From positions 1-35,583 of the forward strand of contig CALFXA010000091.1 of NCBI GenBank assembly GCA_937928015.1: DNA of 35,583 nt, in the 5' to 3' direction. The position numbers and the translations under genes were made by a program. The notes under the pieces are model-generated. The model ran no database searches and was not told the origin of the DNA. It saw only the letters and a list, made by a program, of their open reading frames with translations. This document shows, one piece after another, positions 2,585-14,403 of the stretch (positions are counted from its first letter, which is position 1; every line of letters starts with the position of its first letter). Source of the DNA: an uncultured Anaerolineales bacterium (lineage in GTDB: Bacteria > Chloroflexota > Anaerolineae > Anaerolineales > Villigracilaceae).

Positions 2585-2832
2585 AGCGCATGGACTTTGG
2601 CATTGATTGTACAGCCAAAGTTGACGAGGAACAGGGTTCTTCACTTCGCCGTGAAGCTAATTCAGCCCTCACCCCAACCCTCTCTCAGAGGGAGAGGGAG
2701 AAGGTTGAAGAAAATCGAAAGATCAGCGGAAGCCCTGCGGGATGCCAACCCGAGACCTTTCCCTCCAGTAAAAACTCCAGCACAAGACGTATCGGCAACG
2801 ATGCGGATAAAACGTTGGAGACGGCAAAGAAT
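2585..2832 (+). ncRNA. glmS self-cleaving ribozyme/riboswitch with an inserted REP-like arm
   Basis: Matches the glmS ribozyme family from memory of its consensus. Cleavage site A2585|G2586CGC. P1: ACTTTGGC (2594-2601) with GCCAAAGT (2614-2621). Core GTTGACGAGG at 2620-2629 is identical to the conserved core. P2: CAGGG (2632-2636) with CCCTG (2733-2737), enclosing the conserved-type ATCGA (2714-2718) and AGCGGAAGCCCTGCGG (2725-2740). P3: CGGG (2738-2741) with CCCG (2749-2752); its loop TGCC (2743-2746) pairs with GGCA (2823-2826) as the P3.1 pseudoknot. P4: CTCCAGC (2775-2781) with GTTGGAG (2814-2820). P4.1: 7 bp at 2788-2805 closed by a GCAA tetraloop. It lies about 90 bases before the glmS ATG. 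Glucosamine-6-phosphate acts as cofactor for cleavage, which lowers glmS expression. About 72 bases (2639-2710) are extra within the P2 arm. Confidence 0.93.
2639..2710 (+). repeat. REP-like palindromic insertion inside the ribozyme P2 arm
   Basis: The segment separates the two halves of the conserved P2/P2a sequence. It holds a small hairpin CTTCAC/GTGAAG (2639-2656) and a REP-like unit at 2666-2698 with a 9-bp stem CCCTCTCTC/GGGAGAGGG (2678-2686 with 2690-2698). The same unit recurs at 24281-24316, in the same orientation relative to its downstream gene. Removing it restores a compact, consensus-like ribozyme. Confidence 0.75.
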
Positions 2833-2920: not shown

Positions 2921-4762
2921 ATGTGTGGTATCGTCGGTTACATCGGCCCGCGTGATGCGACGCCGGTCATTCTCAACGGCCTGAAACGGCTGGAGTATCG
3001 TGGTTACGATTCGGCGGGAGTCGCTGTCATTAGCGGCGACCAGATCGAGGTCCGTAGGGATGCGGGGAAACTCTCGCAGTTGGTGGACCTGGTCGCCAAG
3101 TCCCCCGTCAGCGGCGCGCCTGGCATCGGTCACACGCGCTGGGCCACGCACGGAGCGCCGTCGGCGCGCAACGCCCATCCGCATTTGGGCAGCACGGGGC
3201 GCATGGTCGTCGTCCATAACGGCATCGTCGAAAATTTCCTGGAACTCAAGGATGAACTGAGCGCCGAGGGCGTGACCTTCAACTCCGACACGGACACCGA
3301 AACCATCGTGCACCTGGCCGAGCATCACTACGCCGCCGAGGGCGGGATGGTCGAAGCCGCCCGCCGCACCTTCAAGCAGATCGAAGGCGCGAACGTGGTG
3401 GTGATGCTGTCGTCGGACGAGCCCGACAAGATCGTGACGGCACGCATCGGCAATGCAGGCGGTGTGGTCATCGGCCTGGGCGACGGGGAAAACTTCCTCG
3501 CATCAGACATCCCCGCCATTCTGGAACACACCCGCCGCGTCATCTTTTTAGAATCACATCAGATGGCGATCATCACCCGCGACAGCGTGCGCGTCGAAAC
3601 CCTGGACGGAGAGCTGGTCCAGCCCGAGGTGCACGTCATCGCCTGGGACGCGGTATCCGCTGAAAAGGGCGAGTATCGCCACTTCATGCAGAAAGAGATC
3701 CACGAACAGGTGCGCGCGCTGACCGACACGCTGGCAGGCCGCGTGGACTTCAAGGAAGGGCGCATCCGCCTGCCCGAGTTGAACCTGACGCCCGAACTAG
3801 CGAAGCGCATCCAGCGCATCTACATCACCGCCTGCGGTACGGCCGCCTATGCGGGCATGGTCGGCAAGTACTTGATCGAGAAGATCGCGCGCATCCCCGT
3901 GGAAGTGGTCATCGGCTCCGAGTTCCGCTACAGCGACCCGATCATCGATGAGAACACCGTGGTGTTGGCCATCTCGCAATCGGGCGAGACCGCCGACACG
4001 CTGGCCGCGATGGAAGAGGGACGCCGCAAGGGCGCCATCGTGTGGAGCAATGTCAACGCCATCGGCTCGCAAGCCATGCGCGTGGCAGATGGATTCATCT
4101 CGATGCAGACGGGACCCGAGATCGGTGTGGCCTCGACCAAGGCTTTCACCGCCCCATTGGTGGACCAGTACATGCTGGCCATCCTGCTGGCCGACCTGCG
4201 CGGCGTAATCGACGACGCTACGCGCCGCGCGCTGGTGGCCGACCTGCGCCTGGTCCCCGACTTGGCGGGCCGCACCCTGAACGGCGAAGCCGAAGTGGAA
4301 AAGGTGGCGCACGCGCTCAAGGACATCCACGGCTGTCTGTACCTGGGGCGCGGCATCAACATGCCCATCGCCTACGAAGGCGCGCTGAAGTTGAAGGAAA
4401 TCTCCTACATCCACGCTGAAGGCTATCCTGCGGGCGAGATGAAGCACGGTCCCATCGCGCTAATCGACGAGAACATGCCCGTGCTGTGCCTGGCCCCCAA
4501 GGATCCCTGGCACGAGAAGATGATCTCGCAGATCCAGCAGGCCAAGGCGCGCGGAGGGATGGTCATCGCCGTGGCGACCGAAGGCGACGAGTTGATCGCC
4601 TCGATGGCAGACCACGTGCTGTGGGTGCCCGAGGCGCCGTGGATGCTCTCGCCCATCATCACGGTCATCCCGTTGCAATTGCTGGCCTATCACATCGCCG
4701 CCATCCGCGGCCTGGACGTGGACCAGCCGAGGAATTTGGCAAAGAGTGTGACGGTGGAATAG
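2921..4762 (+). CDS. glmS: Glutamine-fructose-6-phosphate aminotransferase (isomerizing)
   Basis: GlmS makes glucosamine-6-phosphate from fructose-6-phosphate and glutamine (EC 2.6.1.16), the first step toward UDP-GlcNAc and cell wall amino sugars, in the cytoplasm. The 613 residues have the full two-part layout. The N-terminal class II glutaminase domain shows Cys2 (MCGIVGYIG), EYRGYDSAG, HTRWATHG, HNGIVEN and SDTDTE. Two SIS isomerase domains follow, with AISQSGETADT and the glmS signature EGYPAGEMKHGPIAL, ending in the typical LAKSVTVE tail needed at the active site. GGAGG lies eight bases before the ATG. It is monocistronic: its own promoter and ribozyme upstream, a strong terminator downstream. 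Product feedback through the ribozyme is the expected control. Confidence 0.98.
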   Translation: MCGIVGYIGPRDATPVILNGLKRLEYRGYDSAGVAVISGDQIEVRRDAGKLSQLVDLVAKSPVSGAPGIGHTRWATHGAPSARNAHPHLGSTGRMVVVHNGIVENFLELKDELSAEGVTFNSDTDTETIVHLAEHHYAAEGGMVEAARRTFKQIEGANVVVMLSSDEPDKIVTARIGNAGGVVIGLGDGENFLASDIPAILEHTRRVIFLESHQMAIITRDSVRVETLDGELVQPEVHVIAWDAVSAEKGEYRHFMQKEIHEQVRALTDTLAGRVDFKEGRIRLPELNLTPELAKRIQRIYITACGTAAYAGMVGKYLIEKIARIPVEVVIGSEFRYSDPIIDENTVVLAISQSGETADTLAAMEEGRRKGAIVWSNVNAIGSQAMRVADGFISMQTGPEIGVASTKAFTAPLVDQYMLAILLADLRGVIDDATRRALVADLRLVPDLAGRTLNGEAEVEKVAHALKDIHGCLYLGRGINMPIAYEGALKLKEISYIHAEGYPAGEMKHGPIALIDENMPVLCLAPKDPWHEKMISQIQQAKARGGMVIAVATEGDELIASMADHVLWVPEAPWMLSPIITVIPLQLLAYHIAAIRGLDVDQPRNLAKSVTVE

Positions 4763-4881: not shown

Positions 4882-4910
4882 TTGATAAGGCATTTATCAG
4901 CATTGATAAT
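4882..4910 (+). promoter_or_regulatory. Promoter of the SLH surface lipase gene
   Basis: TTGATA (4882-4887) and GATAAT (4905-4910) are separated by exactly 17 bases. The expected start near 4917 gives a leader of about 67 bases. A TGATAA/TTATCA inverted repeat (4883-4888 with 4894-4899) overlaps the -35 and spacer. The promoter rules out the upstream in-frame TTG at 4882 as translation start. Confidence 0.55.
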
Positions 4911-4983
4911 AGGTCTTGTACTATGCGGGGGAAATTTTTTCTCTCCCCAAAAATCAAAAAATAGAATACTTAGGAGGCATCTC

Positions 4984-7900
4984 ATGTTCAAGAAATATAG
5001 GCCAACATTGGTACGTATGTTGACTCTCGCGATTATCTTTTCCCTACTAGGAAACATAACTGGGACGACGACCATCCCTGCGCAAGCACAACCGGCCGAC
5101 AACATACCATCTTCTATTACTCTTCCAACCGACAGGATCAATGTTATTTCTAAAGATTTTTATGGGGAAGTAGGATATTCGGCTCCCCTAATAAATCCTT
5201 CTATTTCGCCTAATGGACGTTATATCGTATATCAATCTGACTACTATAACGGCATCCCCTCAGACATTTTTATCCATGATAGGATTACACAATTCACCTA
5301 TAAGATGCCATTCAATCATGAAAATCTGTTACAGCCAGCATACCCCAGCTCAGCGGTTGCGCCGTCCATTTCTAACGACGGGCGATATATTGTTTTCACA
5401 AGCCTAGAATGGGGTGAGTATTCGTTTCCATCCCCTTTTGTGCGAATTTATGACCGCCTCAACCCAAACAGTGAACCAGATTATATTTCGGGGGGGGGCT
5501 CCTTAACAGACTGTGCAGCAATTTCTGGTGATGGGAGATATGTGGCTTTTGAGACTCCGCAACCCCTGGCATCGAACGACAACAATGAATGGCTTGATGA
5601 TATATATGTTAAGGAAATTTCCTCTGGTGACTACACTCTTGTTTCTGTATCCTCCAACGGAGTTGTGGGAAATGAGGGCTCTGGAGAAGGCCGAAGCCAA
5701 GGTTCTTTTAACTGTTCTCCTTCAATTTCAGAAGACGGAAGATATATTGCTTTTACGTCTCCATCCTCTAACCTAGTTGATGGAGACACTAATGGGAAAA
5801 GGGATATATTTGTCCGGGATCAGATATTAGGTACAACCATTCGTGCTTCCGTAGGTTCTAATGGCGTACAAGGAAGTCAAGACTCTATCAATCCATCTAT
5901 TTCTCCGGACGGACGCTATGTGACTTTTTCAACAGCCTCTGCGTTGGATCCTGAAGATACCAACGAAGCTAAAGATATTTACATGCATAACTTGGAGACG
6001 GGCGAGACTTCATGGGTTTCTCAAAGTTATCCTGGTGCATCCTTTACTTTAGAATCCTCCGAACAACCTTCTATCTCAAATAATGGACGGTATGTTGCGT
6101 TTCGTGCCAGTGCGCATGATAATGAGGGGAGTTTTTGGGGAACGTTTATAAATGACACTATCCTTAAGAGCACAATACTGGTTTCATCAGAAAACTTAAC
6201 CACACTCGTTCCTGATGGAATCTCTCTCTCCGCTAGCGGCCAAGAGGTGACATTCGATTCATCTAACAATCTAGTCTCGGAAGATACAAATAATACAACC
6301 GATGTGTTTTGGTATGACAACGCAAGAACTCCTATCATCTTGGTTCATGGATTTCAAGGTTTTAGTGAAGAGGGCGGATACCATTGTAGTGGCATTGGAA
6401 AAAATGATATTAAACTTTACAATCCCGATCTAGATAATACAGATTCAACTTTACATTCAACAGATGGCTCGCCAGCTCTAGCTGATTGGCTCGTTGATGA
6501 CATGGGCTATGAAGTATGGATTGCACACTTAGAGACCACACCCCTCGATTTAGGTACACTCTCAGGTGGCACACCATCATTGTACCTTAATGCAAAATGT
6601 CTACGCAATCAGATAGAATACGTAGCGACACAAAATCCTCAACCCATAACAATTATTGCTCATTCTATGGGTGGTGTTGTCAGCCGCGCAGCAATTAGAG
6701 ATCTAGAACCAGAAGTAAAAGTGGGGGCGCTTTTTACGCTTGGCTCTCCGCATGCCGGTATTCCAATAGACAGTATTGTTACCAACCCCCCTTTCTCAAA
6801 TATATGTATTTCGCATGTAGCTATATGTGAGATGGCATATAGCAAAATGTTTAATTACAATCATGTCAATAAGAACTTAAGCTATATTGACTATTATTTT
6901 ATTGGCGGCAATGGTGGAACTGGCTTTATAAGTAAAATATTACAAGCAGCTGGGGGTGGAGAGACAAACGATGGACTAGTAGGGCAAGAAAGCGCTGTGG
7001 GATGGGCATATTCCATTGGCGGATTTACATCTAACTGGGCAGATGCTTCCATTCCGTTTCAGTACTATACAGATGAGACTCATCCGGCGCGAAGCACCCC
7101 AGAAAAAGCTTATTACGTCGGACAAAATGATCCTGGCAACACAATAGGCGGCATCAAATACAGCGATTCATACCTTTGCATAAAAGCACTTTGGCAAGGA
7201 CAGACTCTGTCAAGCAACAATTGTTCTCCAGCAACGCCACAACAACCTTTAGAAGCCAATAGCCAACAAGAATATTCCTTTACGGACATAGACACCGGGT
7301 CTCTTGCTGCCAACGAAGTCACTTCTGTGCAAATATCTTCAGATACTGCCAATCCAATTCTTTTCTATGTGAACTGGAACGGCGGAAATGCACCATCCGT
7401 AACGCTAACCAGACCGGATGGACAAGTCATCGATCCGACCTATGCGGAAGCGCACCCAGCGGAGGTTACATACGAGACAGGCACAGGGGCCGAAAATCCA
7501 GAGGCTGCTCCCTATATTGGTTATTACTTAACCTCTGGGCAAATTGGTTCCTGGATAATCAATATCACCGCCACAGATGCAATCGAATATCAAGCATTTG
7601 GTATGTTGGAAAGCAGCAACATTATCTTGAATGCCCAAACTGATAATGATAGTTATCAAATCAACCAAGTAGCCACAATTACGGCAACCCTGAACAATAA
7701 CGGCGCTGGCCTCCCTGGCGCCACTGTCATCGCATCACTAGATCGCATGGATGGCATCCAAGATGCTGTCTCCTTGTCCGACCCTGACAACGATGGCATT
7801 TATACTGGCGCGTACGAAATTCCCAATGCTCCAGGGTATCTGACGATTGATGTAACCGCAACCGGAACCAACAACGGTATTATCTTTACCAGGCAAAAGA

Positions 7901-10900
7901 ATTTAATTGTCACAATTGCGCCTGATAATTTAACCTTCACTGGAAACTATGCTGACGCTCCCAATGATGAAAATGCGGATAGCTTCTATGAATATCTTGA
8001 CTTCAGCATGGAGGTCAATGCAAATGTGGCCAAAGAATACAGCATATCTGCCGAATTGTATGCAGGCAATCAACTCATTACCCAATCAAGCGGTTTCTAC
8101 ACACTAACTGGTGGAATACAAGATGTCACGCTCAAGTTTGATGGAAATTCCATCCGAGAAAAGGGACTTGACGGTCCGTACATCATTAAAAACTTGTACG
8201 TCACGCCTCTTGACGTTGGGGTACCAGATCTGAGTGTTGAGAATATTTGGACCACTTCTTACTATGATCATTCGCAGTTTGGAACTCATCCGTGCTACAC
8301 GCTAACACTAACGCACAGTGGCTCGGGCGACGACCCAATTGCAAATCCAGCAAATTCAGAACATTGTGGCCCTGGTGAGTATGCGCCAAACGAAGACATT
8401 GTTCTTACCGCATCACCGTCCAATGGGTGGCATATAAGTGGCTGGACAGGTGCCATTTACGGTAACAGCACTGCAAACTCGAATGCGCTCTTGATGCCTG
8501 GGCACAATCATACGGTGGAAGTCCATTATGGTAGCGAGACCTGGAATACCTTCCTCGGCGGCATCGGCACCGAATTTACGTCCAGTGTCCTAGTTAGTGA
8601 TACAAATGGAAATTCCTATATTGCAGGCCGAAGCAACTTTACCTGGGGTAATCCCATTCGGCCCCATTCGGCATGTGAAACCCCATCAGCAACCTGTGAA
8701 GATATTTATGTCGCCAAAGTCGGTCCAGATGGTTCCTTAATATGGAACACATTCCTGGGAGGCAGCGAATCGGATACGGCCGTGGATATTGCCATCGATA
8801 ACACTGGGAATATCTACGTGTCTGGATTCAGCTATGCTTCTTGGGGCACCCCTCTGCGAGCATTTTCTGGAAATCTGGATGGAGTAGTTGCCAAACTAAA
8901 TTCCTCCGGCACATTGATTTGGAATACCTTCTTAGGTGGAGGAGAGTACGACACAGCCTGGGGCATTGAGGTCGATTCGAACCAGAATATCTACATCAAT
9001 GGCTATAGTACTGCCAGTTGGGGAACCCCGATCCACGCGTTTACCAGCAATTCCATCAGCGGGACAAACGATATCTTTGTGGCAAAGATAAATCCCTCTG
9101 GGACCCTTGCCTGGAATACTTTCCTGGGAGGAGTTGAGGACGATCGAGGCTATGGCATTACCCTGGATAACAACCAGAATATCCTCATCACCGGGCATAG
9201 TGATGCCACCTGGGGTACCCCGGTACGAGCCTTTGTAGGCGGTGTTGGTAGTCCGCGCGATGCTTTTGTCGCAAAATTGAATTCCGCAGGTGCATTAACA
9301 TGGAACACCTTCCTTGGCGGAAACGGAATGGACCGCTGTATCAATCTGGCTGCAGATGCCAGTGGAAACATATATGTGGTTGGCTATAGCACTGAAGACT
9401 GGGGAACGCCCATATATGCCTATAGTGGTGGAAGCCAGGATGGTATAGCCGTCAAATTGTCACCCACAGGGACTCTGGTTTGGAATACTTTTTATGGCGG
9501 AGGCGGAAAAGCCAACGGATATAACGTCACTCTCGATGGAGATGGAAATGTCAATATTGTGGGCGGAAGCAACGCCACGTGGGGTTATCCAATTCATGGG
9601 TACACAGCCAACTTCGATGCCCTGGTTGTAAAAATGAGTCCCTATGGCGGTTTGTTGGCAAACACCTTCCTGGGTGGCAACGGCGAAGATAGGGCATACG
9701 GGATCTACATAAGCGCAGATGGCCGATATTACATATCAGGAATGAGCAAAGCGACTTGGGGAACCCCAATTCGAGCCTACACAGAAAGTCCCACATACCC
9801 AGAAGACACTTTCGTTTTGAAAACCAACTTGGATTCCGCGCCGCTGATCGTATCTTCTATTATTAGAAATAACAACAGTCCCACCAACGCAACCAGTGTA
9901 AGCTTTGAGGTCAAGTTCTCTGAAAACGTGACAGGCATAGATGTGACTGGTCCCATCTATGATGACTTCGCCTTGACAACTGACGGAGTCACCGGCGCAA
10001 CCATCACAAATGTCAGCGGATCAGGTTCTACTTACACAGTGACAGTTAATACAGGTACAGGATACGGCACCCTCCGCCTGGACGTGACAACAAACGGCCA
10101 TATTGTGGATATTGACAGCAATCCGTTAGCTGGGAGTTTTGACCATGGTCAGGCTTATACAATTGACAGGATCGCCCCGACAGTCTCCTCCATAACCCGT
10201 GCATCAGTCAACCCAACGAATTCCGTTAGTGTGGATTATATAGTAACGTTTTCTGAAGCTGTTACTGGCGTGGGGAGCAACGACTTTTCGCTTACCATCT
10301 CCGGCCTTTCTGGAACCAGCATTACCAGTGTTAGCGGCTCTGGGAACAGCTATACCGTGACAGTCAACACGGGTAGCGGTAGCGGCACTCTTAACTTGAT
10401 CGTACCTGCTACAGCCACGATCTATGATAGCGTCGGAAACGCGCTCAGTAGCCTACCCTTCACTACTGGACAAGTCTATAATGTCCGAACAAGTACATTT
10501 TCCGACGTACCAGTCAGTTATTGGGCATGGCAGTACATCGAACGAGCCTACAGCGCGGGCGTTACCGGGGGATGCTCAACAAATCCGCTCATGTACTGCC
10601 CCGAGACAAACGTGACTCGCGATATCATGGCAATATTTTTGTTGCGAGGAAAATATGGCTCTACTTATGCCCCCCCTCCCGTGGGTTCCAGCACGGGTTT
10701 CAACGATGTCCCAACCACATATTGGGCTGCGGCATGGATCAAGGAATTGGCAGCCGAAGGCATAACGAGCGGGTGCGGCAACGGGAATTATTGCCCTGGA
10801 ACCGTCGTTACTCGTGAACAAATGGCCGTCTTCTTGTTGCGAGCCAAACACGGTGCGGCATATACACCTCCTGCAGCCACCGGTATGTTCGCAGATGTCC

Positions 10901-11058
10901 CACAAAACTATTCAGTGGCAGCCTGGATTGAACAGCTTGTAAATGAAGGTATCTCGGGAGGGTGTTCGACAACAAATCCGCCCATGTACTGCCCCAGCGC
11001 CTCTGTGACACGTGCACAGATGGCAATATTCTTGGTGAGAACATTTAACTTACCATAA
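4984..11058 (+). CDS. Giant secreted SLH-anchored protein with lipase domain and SBBP propeller
   Basis: 2024 residues; start chosen at 4984 because AGGAGG lies six bases upstream. Order of parts: signal peptide (residues 1 to about 40, ending near AQAQP); six or seven PD40/TolB-like beta-propeller repeats (about 60-443; SISPNGRYIVYQSD type); an alpha/beta-hydrolase lipase domain (about 449-710) with ILVHGFQG oxyanion strand, nucleophile Ser561 in AHSMGG, and likely acid Asp663 and His700; beta-sandwich and Ig-like segments (about 730-1100); an InlB-B-like repeat (about 1105-1184); seven WNTFLGG-type SBBP repeats (about 1186-1618); two Ig-like units (about 1620-1834); three Cys-containing SLH domains (about 1838-2024). 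Expected to be exported and anchored to the cell surface by the SLH domains. The substrate is unknown; a PGAP1/triacylglycerol-lipase-like esterase is the best guess. Base composition is more AT-rich than in the core genes. Confidence 0.85.
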   Translation: MFKKYRPTLVRMLTLAIIFSLLGNITGTTTIPAQAQPADNIPSSITLPTDRINVISKDFYGEVGYSAPLINPSISPNGRYIVYQSDYYNGIPSDIFIHDRITQFTYKMPFNHENLLQPAYPSSAVAPSISNDGRYIVFTSLEWGEYSFPSPFVRIYDRLNPNSEPDYISGGGSLTDCAAISGDGRYVAFETPQPLASNDNNEWLDDIYVKEISSGDYTLVSVSSNGVVGNEGSGEGRSQGSFNCSPSISEDGRYIAFTSPSSNLVDGDTNGKRDIFVRDQILGTTIRASVGSNGVQGSQDSINPSISPDGRYVTFSTASALDPEDTNEAKDIYMHNLETGETSWVSQSYPGASFTLESSEQPSISNNGRYVAFRASAHDNEGSFWGTFINDTILKSTILVSSENLTTLVPDGISLSASGQEVTFDSSNNLVSEDTNNTTDVFWYDNARTPIILVHGFQGFSEEGGYHCSGIGKNDIKLYNPDLDNTDSTLHSTDGSPALADWLVDDMGYEVWIAHLETTPLDLGTLSGGTPSLYLNAKCLRNQIEYVATQNPQPITIIAHSMGGVVSRAAIRDLEPEVKVGALFTLGSPHAGIPIDSIVTNPPFSNICISHVAICEMAYSKMFNYNHVNKNLSYIDYYFIGGNGGTGFISKILQAAGGGETNDGLVGQESAVGWAYSIGGFTSNWADASIPFQYYTDETHPARSTPEKAYYVGQNDPGNTIGGIKYSDSYLCIKALWQGQTLSSNNCSPATPQQPLEANSQQEYSFTDIDTGSLAANEVTSVQISSDTANPILFYVNWNGGNAPSVTLTRPDGQVIDPTYAEAHPAEVTYETGTGAENPEAAPYIGYYLTSGQIGSWIINITATDAIEYQAFGMLESSNIILNAQTDNDSYQINQVATITATLNNNGAGLPGATVIASLDRMDGIQDAVSLSDPDNDGIYTGAYEIPNAPGYLTIDVTATGTNNGIIFTRQKNLIVTIAPDNLTFTGNYADAPNDENADSFYEYLDFSMEVNANVAKEYSISAELYAGNQLITQSSGFYTLTGGIQDVTLKFDGNSIREKGLDGPYIIKNLYVTPLDVGVPDLSVENIWTTSYYDHSQFGTHPCYTLTLTHSGSGDDPIANPANSEHCGPGEYAPNEDIVLTASPSNGWHISGWTGAIYGNSTANSNALLMPGHNHTVEVHYGSETWNTFLGGIGTEFTSSVLVSDTNGNSYIAGRSNFTWGNPIRPHSACETPSATCEDIYVAKVGPDGSLIWNTFLGGSESDTAVDIAIDNTGNIYVSGFSYASWGTPLRAFSGNLDGVVAKLNSSGTLIWNTFLGGGEYDTAWGIEVDSNQNIYINGYSTASWGTPIHAFTSNSISGTNDIFVAKINPSGTLAWNTFLGGVEDDRGYGITLDNNQNILITGHSDATWGTPVRAFVGGVGSPRDAFVAKLNSAGALTWNTFLGGNGMDRCINLAADASGNIYVVGYSTEDWGTPIYAYSGGSQDGIAVKLSPTGTLVWNTFYGGGGKANGYNVTLDGDGNVNIVGGSNATWGYPIHGYTANFDALVVKMSPYGGLLANTFLGGNGEDRAYGIYISADGRYYISGMSKATWGTPIRAYTESPTYPEDTFVLKTNLDSAPLIVSSIIRNNNSPTNATSVSFEVKFSENVTGIDVTGPIYDDFALTTDGVTGATITNVSGSGSTYTVTVNTGTGYGTLRLDVTTNGHIVDIDSNPLAGSFDHGQAYTIDRIAPTVSSITRASVNPTNSVSVDYIVTFSEAVTGVGSNDFSLTISGLSGTSITSVSGSGNSYTVTVNTGSGSGTLNLIVPATATIYDSVGNALSSLPFTTGQVYNVRTSTFSDVPVSYWAWQYIERAYSAGVTGGCSTNPLMYCPETNVTRDIMAIFLLRGKYGSTYAPPPVGSSTGFNDVPTTYWAAAWIKELAAEGITSGCGNGNYCPGTVVTREQMAVFLLRAKHGAAYTPPAATGMFADVPQNYSVAAWIEQLVNEGISGGCSTTNPPMYCPSASVTRAQMAIFLVRTFNLP

Positions 11059-11192: not shown

Positions 11193-12371
11193 ATGAAAGC
11201 TCAAATCGTACTCCTTACAACTCTAATCATCATGTTGACAGCCTGTCTGCCGCCGCAAATCAGCGAAATAGATATTCAAAATACAAATGTTGCCATTATC
11301 GGGACAGGGGTAGTGCTGACACAAACGGCTTTACCTACCATGACTCCAACAATTACTTCTATGGAATCGGCCCCGACCCCTTTGCCGCCAGAGCCAACTG
11401 CCGTCGTTTTGTCGCCAGGGCAAGAGGACCTGAAAACCGTTATTCAGACCTATTTTGATATCCGCTACCTTACATATAACTCTTTACAATTACCAGACTT
11501 TGGGGATGTAATATCCAATGAACCTGATGGAAAGGCGTTTCTTGATGCGGAAATGCATAATCTGGCAGTCTGGACTCAGTATGCGCGGTTGAATTCCTTA
11601 CGATATTCCTACTACAAATACTCCCTTACATTTCAAAATATCACCACCGACCCAATTACTCAACTGGTTACAGTGAATGTGATTGAGGGAAATGAAGTTA
11701 TTTATGAAATTTCGGAAAGGCTCGATCCTGAAAGTCCCATCATTTCTCATTCGGCCGGAATAGTCCATACAATCACTCTCCGAAATGAGCAGGGACAATG
11801 GAAAATCATATCGGACAGTTACCACAACGATGCCCAGGTACAGTACTGGCAAGGGGGTGAATCCACCGAAGAAAGGCAGAAGTTTATAGATGGTATATTG
11901 AGTCCTAAAGAAACATATTCTTCTTCGCAAACTTTGAAAGTGACCGTTACGCCAGATTTGATCCAAATCTCGCACTGGAAAGAATATGAGAGTGCGCTTG
12001 CCAATAAATTACTCCCCGCGCTGCCGCGAGAAAAGGTTTTATGTGAATGGCAGCCTTTTAGCCAGACTGCACAAGAACTTTTCGTCTGGACAATGTGCAC
12101 AGAAACCACTCCACTGGCAGAAATCAGCATTTATTTCTTCCGTACAGTGGACATTCCAGCAGTAATCCACCTCAATGCAGATGGCTCCGTGCAAAGTATA
12201 GAAATTCCAGAATTTGGACCGAATTATTACTCTGACTTGAACAGACTATTTCCATTGGCAGCGCGAAACGGGCTACCCGATGTGAAGTTGATGGAAGAAC
12301 ATCTCGATTGGCGACGGACGCATCCGGAGGAACCACCTTTGATCGTCCTTTCCGCAACACCCATACCATAA
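11193..12371 (+). CDS. Lipoprotein, first and longest of a tandem paralogous array
   Basis: A 392-residue lipoprotein: signal helix, lipobox LTAC (Cys18) and a Thr/Pro linker. AGGAGG precedes the ATG. Residues about 75-225 form an extra domain that the next three genes lack (QEDLKTVIQTYFDIRY to GQWKIISDSYHNDAQVQYW); it resembles the small alpha/beta domains that accompany secreted amidase-like proteins, but I cannot name it. The C-terminal half (from about residue 255) has the domain shared by all four paralogs: a Trp-x-x-hydrophobic stretch, LCEW, a QELFVW strand, an AVIHLNADGS strand, and the tail HLDWRRTHPEEPPLIVLSA. Function unknown; expected on the outer face of the membrane. Confidence 0.8.
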   Translation: MKAQIVLLTTLIIMLTACLPPQISEIDIQNTNVAIIGTGVVLTQTALPTMTPTITSMESAPTPLPPEPTAVVLSPGQEDLKTVIQTYFDIRYLTYNSLQLPDFGDVISNEPDGKAFLDAEMHNLAVWTQYARLNSLRYSYYKYSLTFQNITTDPITQLVTVNVIEGNEVIYEISERLDPESPIISHSAGIVHTITLRNEQGQWKIISDSYHNDAQVQYWQGGESTEERQKFIDGILSPKETYSSSQTLKVTVTPDLIQISHWKEYESALANKLLPALPREKVLCEWQPFSQTAQELFVWTMCTETTPLAEISIYFFRTVDIPAVIHLNADGSVQSIEIPEFGPNYYSDLNRLFPLAARNGLPDVKLMEEHLDWRRTHPEEPPLIVLSATPIP

Positions 12372-12375
12372 AATC

Positions 12376-13029
12376 ATGAAAACCAACATCATTTCCTTCA
12401 TCCTGCTCATCCTAGCCTTGACCGCCTGCACGTCCGCCCAACCCGTGGACATTCAAGGCACGGCTGTCGTCCTTGCGAAAACAGGCGTCGCGCTGACGCA
12501 AACCGCCCAACCAACTGCCACGCTTCCGCCGACTGTGACGCCCACGGCCACGATCACGTATCCCTCGCCATCGCCCTATCCTACGCAAAAGCCTCTCCCT
12601 ATCTTTACTCCCGATGCAATTCTGGTAGAGCGCTGGACAGAATGTCAAACAGAACTGGCAAAGATTGTCCTCTCTGGATATGGGTCTGTTTCCAAATATG
12701 CTTTATGTGAATGGGATATCTTAGGACGTTCTGGACAGGAAGTATATGTATGGGCATTTTGCATAGAGAGGGGGGCCAATGGCAGTCACCCCGCAGTAAT
12801 TTATCTTGAAAAGGATGGGGCGATTAGAGATGTGAGAATCGCCAGGTACAAAGGCGATTCTTTTGACCTTAGCATATTTCCAGAATATGTGCAGGAGAAA
12901 TGTGATTTGTATTTGGGATATTCACTATTTGATGGAAGAATAAAAGAAATGATAGAGCATGTCCACTATAGAGAAACACATCCAGAAATACCGCCTTTGG
13001 TCGTTCTTTCCGCAATATCCATGCCATAA
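12376..13029 (+). CDS. Lipoprotein, second member of tandem array
   Basis: A 217-residue protein: signal helix, lipobox LTAC, GTAVVLAKTGVALTQTAQP linker common to the array, a TPT-rich spacer, then the shared C-terminal domain (ALCEWDILGRSGQEVYVWAF, AVIYLEKDGAIRDV, tail HVHYRETHPEIPPLVVLSA). The ATG lies four bases after the previous stop and has no ribosome binding site, so it probably depends on coupled translation. Its first 80 bases are almost identical to those of the fourth gene. Function unknown. Not a shadow frame: the lipobox and the shared domain are both intact. Confidence 0.8.
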   Translation: MKTNIISFILLILALTACTSAQPVDIQGTAVVLAKTGVALTQTAQPTATLPPTVTPTATITYPSPSPYPTQKPLPIFTPDAILVERWTECQTELAKIVLSGYGSVSKYALCEWDILGRSGQEVYVWAFCIERGANGSHPAVIYLEKDGAIRDVRIARYKGDSFDLSIFPEYVQEKCDLYLGYSLFDGRIKEMIEHVHYRETHPEIPPLVVLSAISMP

Positions 13030-13033
13030 AACC

Positions 13034-13684
13034 ATGAAAACCAACATCATTTCCCTCATCTTGCTCACCCTGGCGTTGACTACTGCCTGCACATCCACCC
13101 AACCCGCGGACGTTCAAGGCACGGCCGTCGTGCTCGCCAAAACTGGCATTGCGCTGACGCAAACCGCCCAACCTACGGCCACGCTTCCGCCGACTGTGAC
13201 GCCCACGGCTACGGTCACGTATCCCGTGCCATCGCCGTATCCCCCTCTGCCTCCTATCTTTGACGTTACCCCTAACGCCATCCAAATAAATAATTGGAAG
13301 AGCTATCAAACTGCATTGGCAAAAAGTATCCTACCCTACACATTACCAGAATTACTCCATCTGGTTTTATGTGAATGGAGCATTTTAGGGCAATCCGATC
13401 AAGAAATATATGTGTGGGCTGTGTGTGATAGTGGAGAACGCGGATCATCTCCAGCAGTTATTTACATAAAGGCTGATGGCAGTATACAAAACGTGAAGGC
13501 TGTTAACCCCGATTCCACACGAGGTTCTCAAATTCGACAACTATTCCCGCCAAATATCCAAGAGAAAATTTTTAGCAATTTCATTTCAACTATCGATGAA
13601 CAGTTAATCATTCATCTCGATTGGCGACGAACACACCCAGAAGAACCGCCTTTGATCGTCCTTTCCGCAACACCCATACCATAA
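13034..13684 (+). CDS. Lipoprotein, third member of tandem array
   Basis: A 216-residue lipoprotein with lipobox LTTAC, the same QGTAVVLAKTGIALTQTAQP linker and the same C-terminal domain (VLCEWSILGQSDQEIYVWAV, AVIYIKADGSIQNV, tail HLDWRRTHPEEPPLIVLSA). The start at 13034 lines up with its paralogs; a longer in-frame start at 12959 lies inside the previous gene and is rejected. The gap to the preceding stop is four bases and no Shine-Dalgarno is visible. The tail and stop region are nearly identical in DNA to the end of the first array gene, while the middle is diverged. Function unknown. Confidence 0.8.
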   Translation: MKTNIISLILLTLALTTACTSTQPADVQGTAVVLAKTGIALTQTAQPTATLPPTVTPTATVTYPVPSPYPPLPPIFDVTPNAIQINNWKSYQTALAKSILPYTLPELLHLVLCEWSILGQSDQEIYVWAVCDSGERGSSPAVIYIKADGSIQNVKAVNPDSTRGSQIRQLFPPNIQEKIFSNFISTIDEQLIIHLDWRRTHPEEPPLIVLSATPIP

Positions 13685-13688
13685 AATC

Positions 13689-14399
13689 ATGAAAACCAAC
13701 ATCATTTCCTTCATCCTGCTCATCCTAGCCTTGACCGCCTGCACGTCCGCCCAACCCGTGGACGTTCAAGGCACTGCCGTTGCGCTTGCGGTGACGGAAA
13801 TTCATCTGACGCAATCCCTATTGCCTACCCCAACGCCAACTGCAACAGCGACAATCGAATTCATCTTGCCAACTCCCTATCCAACACAGCCACATCCACC
13901 CATTTTTACGCCAGACGCAACTCAAGTAGAAAGGTGGAAAGAGTATCAAGCAGAATTATCAAAAATTGTTCTTTCTTCTAATCTGGAACTGGGAAATGAT
14001 CCTGCTACATATGAGAATGCTTTATGTGAATGGGATATTTTAGGGCAATCAAGTCAAGCAGTGTACGTGTATGTAGTGTGTGTCATTGCAAAAGGTAACG
14101 GGGGTATGAGAACCCCAGCCATAATTTATCTTGAGAAAGACGGCTCCATTCAAAAAGTACAGCTTCCCGAGTCTAAAGATACAAATAGTGAAATGTTTGA
14201 CTATGCCTCATTTCCAATCTATGTACAGGAAAAATTCTGCTACTACTTTGACCCGTTTCCATCTGATCTCCCCCCTTGCCCATTCAGCAGCACATATCCA
14301 CGACCAAGACTTGATAAATTATATGCTCACCTCGAATATAGAAAAGCGCATCCAGAAGAGCCACCTTTGATCGTCCTTTCCGCAACACCTACACCATAA
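13689..14399 (+). CDS. Lipoprotein, fourth member of tandem array
   Basis: A 236-residue lipoprotein with lipobox LTAC and QGTAVALAVTEIHLTQ linker. The shared domain follows (ALCEWDILGQSSQAVYVYVV, AIIYLEKDGSIQKV), with a short Cys/Pro-rich insertion near residues 195-213 that the others lack, then tail HLEYRKAHPEEPPLIVLSA. It starts four bases after the third gene with no ribosome binding site. A terminator follows. The four genes appear to form one transcript. Function unknown. Confidence 0.8.
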   Translation: MKTNIISFILLILALTACTSAQPVDVQGTAVALAVTEIHLTQSLLPTPTPTATATIEFILPTPYPTQPHPPIFTPDATQVERWKEYQAELSKIVLSSNLELGNDPATYENALCEWDILGQSSQAVYVYVVCVIAKGNGGMRTPAIIYLEKDGSIQKVQLPESKDTNSEMFDYASFPIYVQEKFCYYFDPFPSDLPPCPFSSTYPRPRLDKLYAHLEYRKAHPEEPPLIVLSATPTP

Positions 14400-14403
14400 A
14401 GCA

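Follow-up and report, generated by a model that had tools for sequence, protein, structure and literature searches.

The leader of the glmS gene at 2921-4762 raises the question of which RNA it carries and, should that RNA be a glmS ribozyme, what the parts that depart from the known form might do. Within the window, by which we mean the whole stretch of 35,583 bases analysed, the sole Rfam match at gathering level is to the glmS ribozyme family RF00234, at 2574-2830 on the forward strand; its 48.7 bits (cut-off 37; E 1.6e-8) are a modest score for the plain Rfam model. A model built from relatives matches 2572-2767 with 122.7 bits, the window being itself one of its 32 training rows. The Rfam match ends 90 bases before the start codon of a gene whose product was identified as GlmS by its match to 4amv (E 4.1e-160), the RNA thus holding the glmS-leader position of the family. 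The family hallmark is also present, namely an A/G cleavage site followed by CGC (A2585/G2586) and the motif GACGAGG at 2623-2629. The first-pass annotation had placed a glmS ribozyme here and named the RF00234 model as its check. The search result above the cut-off, the anatomy and the gene context all agree with that proposal, the predicted cleavage site is the one that it gave, and every helix that it listed was found in place, including a P3.1 that in the window has merely 4 bp and was read by eye. Its assignment to a Chloroflexota host was also upheld: among the 80 loci kept, the nearest GlmS proteins by best-segment identity (L002, 89%; L001, 87%; L003, 86%) all come from Chloroflexi metagenome-assembled genomes. 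Relatives were reached through GlmS similarity and the comparisons below rest on those genomes.

The segment 2572-2830 has a minimum free energy of -88.3 (z -3.33), a value equalled in one of 200 shuffles, and unprompted folding yields P0, P1, P2, two extra stems, P3, P4 and P4.1 together. A chance match or a different RNA family is disfavoured by the covariance-model score and by the covariation described below. The window RNA is thus very probably, as judged from its sequence, a self-cleaving ribozyme of the RF00234 family activated by glucosamine-6-phosphate (GlcN6P), of a subtype with two additional core stems. Its parts are as follows, with the P3.1 and P2.1/P2.2 pseudoknots assigned by eye and core positions numbered after PMC7125110.

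2517-2522, + strand: probable -10 box (TATAAT) of the glmS leader, from the sequence; TATAAT-like boxes are seen by eye upstream in many of 39 leaders
2553-2558, + strand: conserved GGAGGU motif upstream of the ribozyme, from GGAGG counts in leaders against shuffling
2576-2583, + strand: 5' strand of helix P0, AGGGAAAG, from permutation tests and folding
2585-2586, + strand: predicted cleavage site A(-1)/G1, from the model match and the sequence
2587-2592, + strand: 5' strand of P2.2, with A2590 bulged and a probable U2591-A2725 pair, on the numbering given in passages of PMC7125110
2593-2622, + strand: P1 hairpin (2593-2601/2614-2622), from the Rfam match, covariation and folding
2623-2629, + strand: GACGAGG core, of which C2625, G2626 and A2627 form the 5' strand of P2.1, from the 33-row alignment
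2632-2636, + strand: 5' strand of P2, partner 2733-2737, from the Rfam match and covariation
2639-2656, + strand: extra hairpin stem A (2639-2644/2651-2656), inside J2/2.1, from covariation in 32 rows
2657-2660, + strand: CUAA linker from stem A to stem B, both A residues invariant in 32 rows
2661-2709, + strand: extra hairpin stem B (arms 2661-2667 and 2703-2709), from covariation and folding
2666-2698, + strand: REP-like palindromic insert at the tip of stem B, from a core pattern repeated in relatives' genomes
2713-2718, + strand: AAUCGA, of which U2715, C2716 and G2717 form the 3' strand of P2.1, from sequence and alignment
2721-2732, + strand: GAUCAGCGGAAG, of which C2724-G2728 form the 3' strand of P2.2, from sequence and alignment
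2733-2737, + strand: 3' strand of P2, from the Rfam match and covariation
2738-2752, + strand: P3 hairpin (2738-2741/2749-2752), whose loop UGCC at 2743-2746 pairs with 2823-2826 (P3.1), from sequence and folding, P3.1 by eye
2757-2764, + strand: 3' strand of helix P0, CUUUCCCU, in J3/4, from permutation tests and folding
2775-2820, + strand: P4 (2775-2781/2814-2820) with P4.1 (2788-2794/2799-2805) and its GCAA loop, from the Rfam match, sequence and folding
2823-2826, + strand: 3' strand of P3.1 (GGCA), from the sequence
2908-2912, + strand: probable ribosome-binding site of glmS (GGAGG), from the sequence
2921-4762, + strand: glmS, 613 aa, from the open reading frame and the 4amv match (E 4.1e-160)

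The window shares with canonical RF00234 members of Firmicutes, such as that of Thermobrachium (L048), the A/G site, the double pseudoknot, the GNRA-capped P4.1 on P4 and the place before glmS. The two differ in three respects: the canonical J2/2.1 is stemless, whereas that of the window bears two hairpins; the 5' leader is A-rich and shows no P0 in L048 and in the Rfam consensus, whereas the window has one; and a C5-G53 pair with a bulge at position 6 is replaced in the window by a bulged A5. Passages of PMC7125110 give about UUUA as the canonical joiner between P2 and the UCG strand of P2.1. The corresponding segment of the window reads UU, stem A, CUAA, stem B and GAAAAUCGA, that is, two J2/2.1 hairpins connected by a UAA linker. 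Here the first-pass anatomy, sound for the parts that it named, had overlooked both stems, the palindrome at the end of stem B, and P0, which begins outside the segment that it described (2585-2832).

Comparison with the relatives' leaders showed that the core strands are kept and that the extra stems covary. In 32 two-stem sequences, all six pairs of stem A and all five of stem B vary on both sides, with 91.0% and 96.8% of cells paired, respectively. For P1, P2 and the two stems together the figure was 91.5%, against 63.8% after shuffling (0/500 as high), and it fell to 53-55% when the partner was shifted by one base. Forty held-out sequences, taken in list order from the matches of the two-stem model in genomes unused before, gave 98.2% for the whole structure (0/500 shuffles), 98.3% for stem A and 97.4% for stem B, figures that lean towards the model because the sequences were aligned to it.

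Across 33 aligned rows, comprising leaders of glmS, glnA, ada-glnA, glutamate synthase and GlmR-mutase genes, ACGAGG, UCG and GCGG are invariant, and the first core letter, G2623, varies. The strands of P2.1 and P2.2 are complementary and in place, with C5-G53 replaced by a bulged A5 and a U6-A53 pair; on reading the sequences, the bulge of P2.2 thus appears shifted from position 6 to A5. By eye, leaders beginning GCGCA have A53 and those beginning GCGCC have G53; most of the former allow U6-A53 with A5 bulged, and L004, L007 and L011 are among those unable to form a standard 6-53 pair. Copies of the glnA type begin GCGGCUG or GCGACUG, with an additional base behind position 3, and position -1 is a G in L250. 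Such variation in P2.2 is not new as such, since passages of PMC7125110 describe the 5-53 pair as poorly conserved in nature and deduce bulge shifts from double mutants. The core changes (A5, A53, A59), together with the insertion of a mobile repeat, could also mean that the ribozyme is inactive and decaying. Single changes of C5 or G53 cost about 1000-fold on average in the canonical core, according to the same passages (PMC7125110), and the window ribozyme does carry a 33-base insert. We nevertheless regard decay as very improbable: the same changes are common to many genomes, with covariation and with unchanged core strands, and A5 accompanies A53, mostly with a U6 able to pair with it, on reading the rows, a pattern similar to the bulge shifts deduced from double mutants in PMC7125110.

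Immediately 5' of the cleavage site, AGGGAAAG at 2576-2583 is complementary to 2757-2764 in J3/4. The resulting helix, P0, which part of the family lacks, reaches across the cut, with the core and P3 enclosed between its strands. An initial energy test on mixed and wrongly anchored sequences showed an excess that was weak (-10.72 compared with -8.97 kcal/mol; median rank 20 of 69), because errors in the sites and sequences without P0 diluted it. Sequences were then divided by eye into 39 with P0 and 25 without, and the sites were anchored on P1, those of L006 and L178 being placed by hand. In the group of 39, whose best helices have 5-9 bp, each strand scored 18.18 with its own partner as opposed to 15.39 with permuted partners (0/5000); for 25 with distinct strands the values were 17.64 and 14.18 (0/5000). 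The 25 sequences judged to lack P0 showed no excess (10.40 against 11.05, with 4827/5000 permutations as high). To remedy the division by eye, 40 fetched sequences that score highly in the two-stem model R1 and were selected blind to P0 served as a held-out set; parsing succeeded for 37, and L294, L312 and L313 were dropped. Here the score was 18.73 against 16.11 (0/5000), and 18.48 against 15.77 (0/5000) for the 29 with distinct strands; the best helices ranged from 4 to 11 bp, with just 4 bp in three sequences and 5 bp in four. The most likely role of P0 is to hold the 5' strand in place and aid folding of the core; its pairing across the cut should keep the two products together once cleavage has occurred. 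A P0-like complement of 5-6 bp was seen by eye at four of six Deinococcota-type loci (L255, L256, L258 and L260), so P0 may belong to a wider two-stem type. Among the titles and abstract openings of the open-access literature searched, we found no report of P0.

It could be argued that this is an ordinary glmS ribozyme with neutral decoration, the extra stems and P0 having no functional effect. Canonical short cores that do without the extra parts occur in the same phylum, P0 is absent from part of the two-stem group, and the tip of stem B varies freely, as its inserts show. Yet compensatory changes maintain the stem arms, the linker and P0 over many genomes, which decoration would not require. 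On balance we consider this explanation rather unlikely.

At the tip of stem B, the insert 2666-2698 contains CCCTCACCCCAACCCTCTCTCAGAGGGAGAGGG, a palindrome that we take to be REP-like; its first 19 bases are single-copy in the window. Its core pattern was found 15 times in G003, four times in G001 (the genome of L001) and once each in G002 and G834; the remaining nine of the 13 genomes had none, nor did the reversed control. In G003 one of the copies lies within the glmS ribozyme, and in G001 one lies within the second ribozyme. Among the 15 ada-glnA ribozymes described below, about 11 show a similar CT-rich palindrome in stem B by eye, and long inserts in P1 occur in at least six. The end of stem B repeatedly bears CT-rich palindromes, in the window (2666-2698) and, also by eye, in L003, L188, L196, L197 and L238-L248; the P1 loop holds other palindromic repeats, as though these ends could safely receive insertions.

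Upstream of the ribozyme, GGAGG is present in 22/39 and 19/25 leaders of the two groups, against 3.0 and 5.0 expected from shuffling, and in 24/37 held-out leaders. By eye, no start codon followed it at a constant spacing among the leaders, a few of which have a stray TTG. The upstream GGAGG might pair with CCUCC in J3/4; the two co-occur in 18/39 and 9/25 leaders. Elsewhere in the window, an open reading frame of 2058 residues with repeats (4882-11058) ends in three stretches that, to our eye, resemble S-layer homology domains, and 12299-14400 contains direct repeats of 74-251 bases spaced by about 655-715 bases, perhaps tandem gene copies.

How widespread is this build? In the phylum of G001 (taxon names of the searched sets are deduced from named loci), RF00234 matched 136 of 400 genomes at E <= 0.01 and 111 of 400 over the cut-off, so its presence there is common. 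The first-pass suggestion that the ribozyme is exceptional outside Firmicutes is therefore right only in part; the unusual features are how its core is built and, in relatives, the additional target genes. In the class of G001, the R1 model matched 239 of 396 genomes at E <= 0.001, a count that includes the genome of L009, which has a short core; 28 short-core control loci score 25.3-58.4 bits in R1. As short cores too match the model, we call clearly two-stem only the 201 of 396 genomes with matches at E <= 1e-12 (about 67 bits), well above any of those 28 loci. The two-stem build is common in the relatives of the window. In the phylum of the Meiothermus genome, R1 matched 48 of 81 genomes with 28-52 bits, a range that short cores reach, so that the type cannot be told from these scores. 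All six loci fetched from that phylum (L255-L260) show both stems on reading, and in these as in Meiothermus L054 two hairpins surround a short linker (AUAA or similar). Compared at glmS ribozyme loci alone, the Deinococcus-Thermus sequences differ in their far lower scores in the Chloroflexota-built model, and the P2.2 of L054 has G6-C53, unlike that of the window. McCown, Roth and Breaker reportedly described, in 2011, additional core stems in glmS ribozymes of Deinococcus-Thermus; for that reason the extra stems are probably of a known kind, new here in extent. No additional stems of the glmS ribozyme were mentioned in the titles and abstract openings of the open-access literature searched, and passages of papers that mention both the ribozyme and Chloroflexi drew no link between them.

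Further copies in the relatives precede other genes. More than one match was found in 27 of 30 genomes, 24 of the 30 having been chosen for at least two matches and six as relatives; G002, G006 and G007 have a single match. In the 27 genomes, glnA lies directly downstream of an extra copy at seven loci (L212, L225-L229 and L234), and four of the encoded proteins score 523-551 bits with TIGR00653. An eighth case, L273, came from a pattern search that matched 16 of 396 genomes, with none in the reversed control. At 15 loci the extra copy is followed by an ada-like gene, whose product in L246 combines, by family search, an AraC helix-turn-helix with a methyltransferase; the others are 68-79% identical to it. 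That ada might itself be the target was set aside because glnA lies further along the same strand, 2.2-2.7 kb behind the ribozyme, in 13 of the 15; in the remaining two (L237 and L249) the contig ends before any glnA. The reading frame between the ada-like gene and glnA in L246 is, by its look, presumably a permease. Glutamate synthase-like genes follow an extra copy at four loci: L252 (PF01645, 341 bits), L231 and L232 (74% and 67% identical to L252) and L253 (42% identity over part of a reading frame of 1219 residues). In one case, L250, a fusion of CofD/YvcK-type (GlmR) and phosphohexomutase lies downstream. The latter gene (L250:948-3242) specifies a single protein of 764 residues in which the GlmR-like domain is joined to the phosphohexomutase.

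In the held-out set, glmS is downstream in 34 of 37 and a DegT-family aminotransferase in three (L285 and L299 by Pfam, L287 by similar sequence). The genomes of these three loci (G457 for L285, G481 for L299, G429 for L287), which are perhaps incomplete, contained no glmS over the family cut-off. G429 has a 106-residue reading frame with GlmS positions 1-52 and 559-607, and in G481 a C-terminal piece of GlmS lies 2.4 kb behind the ribozyme. Among the 143 loci L081-L223, some of which overlap, the best target was glmS in 129, glnA in eight, glutamate synthase in one and none in five (L115, L160, L172, L205 and L223). At L227:393-4488, ribozyme, glnA, ribozyme and glmS stand in tandem inside 4.1 kb.

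The position of second copies before amino-nitrogen genes suggests a GlcN6P-controlled amino-nitrogen regulon in the relatives. Conversely, targets besides glmS (glnA, ada-glnA, glutamate synthase and the DegT aminotransferase) might be taken to mean that the two-stem subtype, or some second copies, respond to another ligand. Consistent with this idea, position 26 deviates in L212 (A) and in the ada-glnA type (C or U), the latter also deviating after UCG. On the other hand, strands 28-30 and 43-45, which passages of PMC7125110 assign to the active site and the cofactor pocket, show no change across the 33 rows, and glmS remains the commonest target (34/37 held-out). A different ligand therefore seems improbable to us. 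Titles and abstract openings in the open-access literature searched included no glmS ribozyme before glnA and no glnA regulon.

By analogy with the known family, GlcN6P, the product of GlmS, would bind a preformed pocket and serve as cofactor, and the RNA would cut itself between A2585 and G2586. The 3' piece carrying glmS would thus acquire a 5'-OH and be destroyed by RNase J, its loss closing a negative feedback loop. TIGR00649, which we take to represent the RNase J family, was over its cut-off in 9/9 relatives, a weak argument because 13 of 14 control genomes match too, nine of them over the cut-off. In Bacillus subtilis, passages of PMC3997798 describe GlcN6P-dependent cleavage and decay of the 5'-OH product by RNase J1. 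In the relatives, GlcN6P would probably also throttle the supply of glutamine used by GlmS; because GlmS consumes glutamine, placing glnA and glutamate synthase under such control would bring nitrogen supply into line with the demand for amino sugars.

We lean slightly towards a multi-operon regulon of GlcN6P ribozymes in Anaerolineae-type Chloroflexota, comprising glmS, glnA, ada-permease-glnA operons, glutamate synthase-like genes, the GlmR-phosphohexomutase fusion and DegT aminotransferases. In it GlcN6P would signal amino-nitrogen sufficiency, P0 would clamp the products, and the outcome might be reached through release or strand exchange beyond exonuclease decay. The glmS ribozyme is the textbook one-gene riboswitch that uses a metabolite as cofactor; McCown, Roth and Breaker are said to have listed, in 2011, 463 ribozymes, all but two before glmS. 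A multi-gene regulon would, if true, be the first known to us for this ribozyme. Fresh test material comes from a widespread subtype whose core has additional helices and whose cleavage site is spanned by a further one; it bears on the tolerance of the core to insertions and on the role of the leader strand. Should the second copies, too, be responsive to GlcN6P, cell-wall sugar supply would be coupled to glutamine synthesis by an RNA catalyst.
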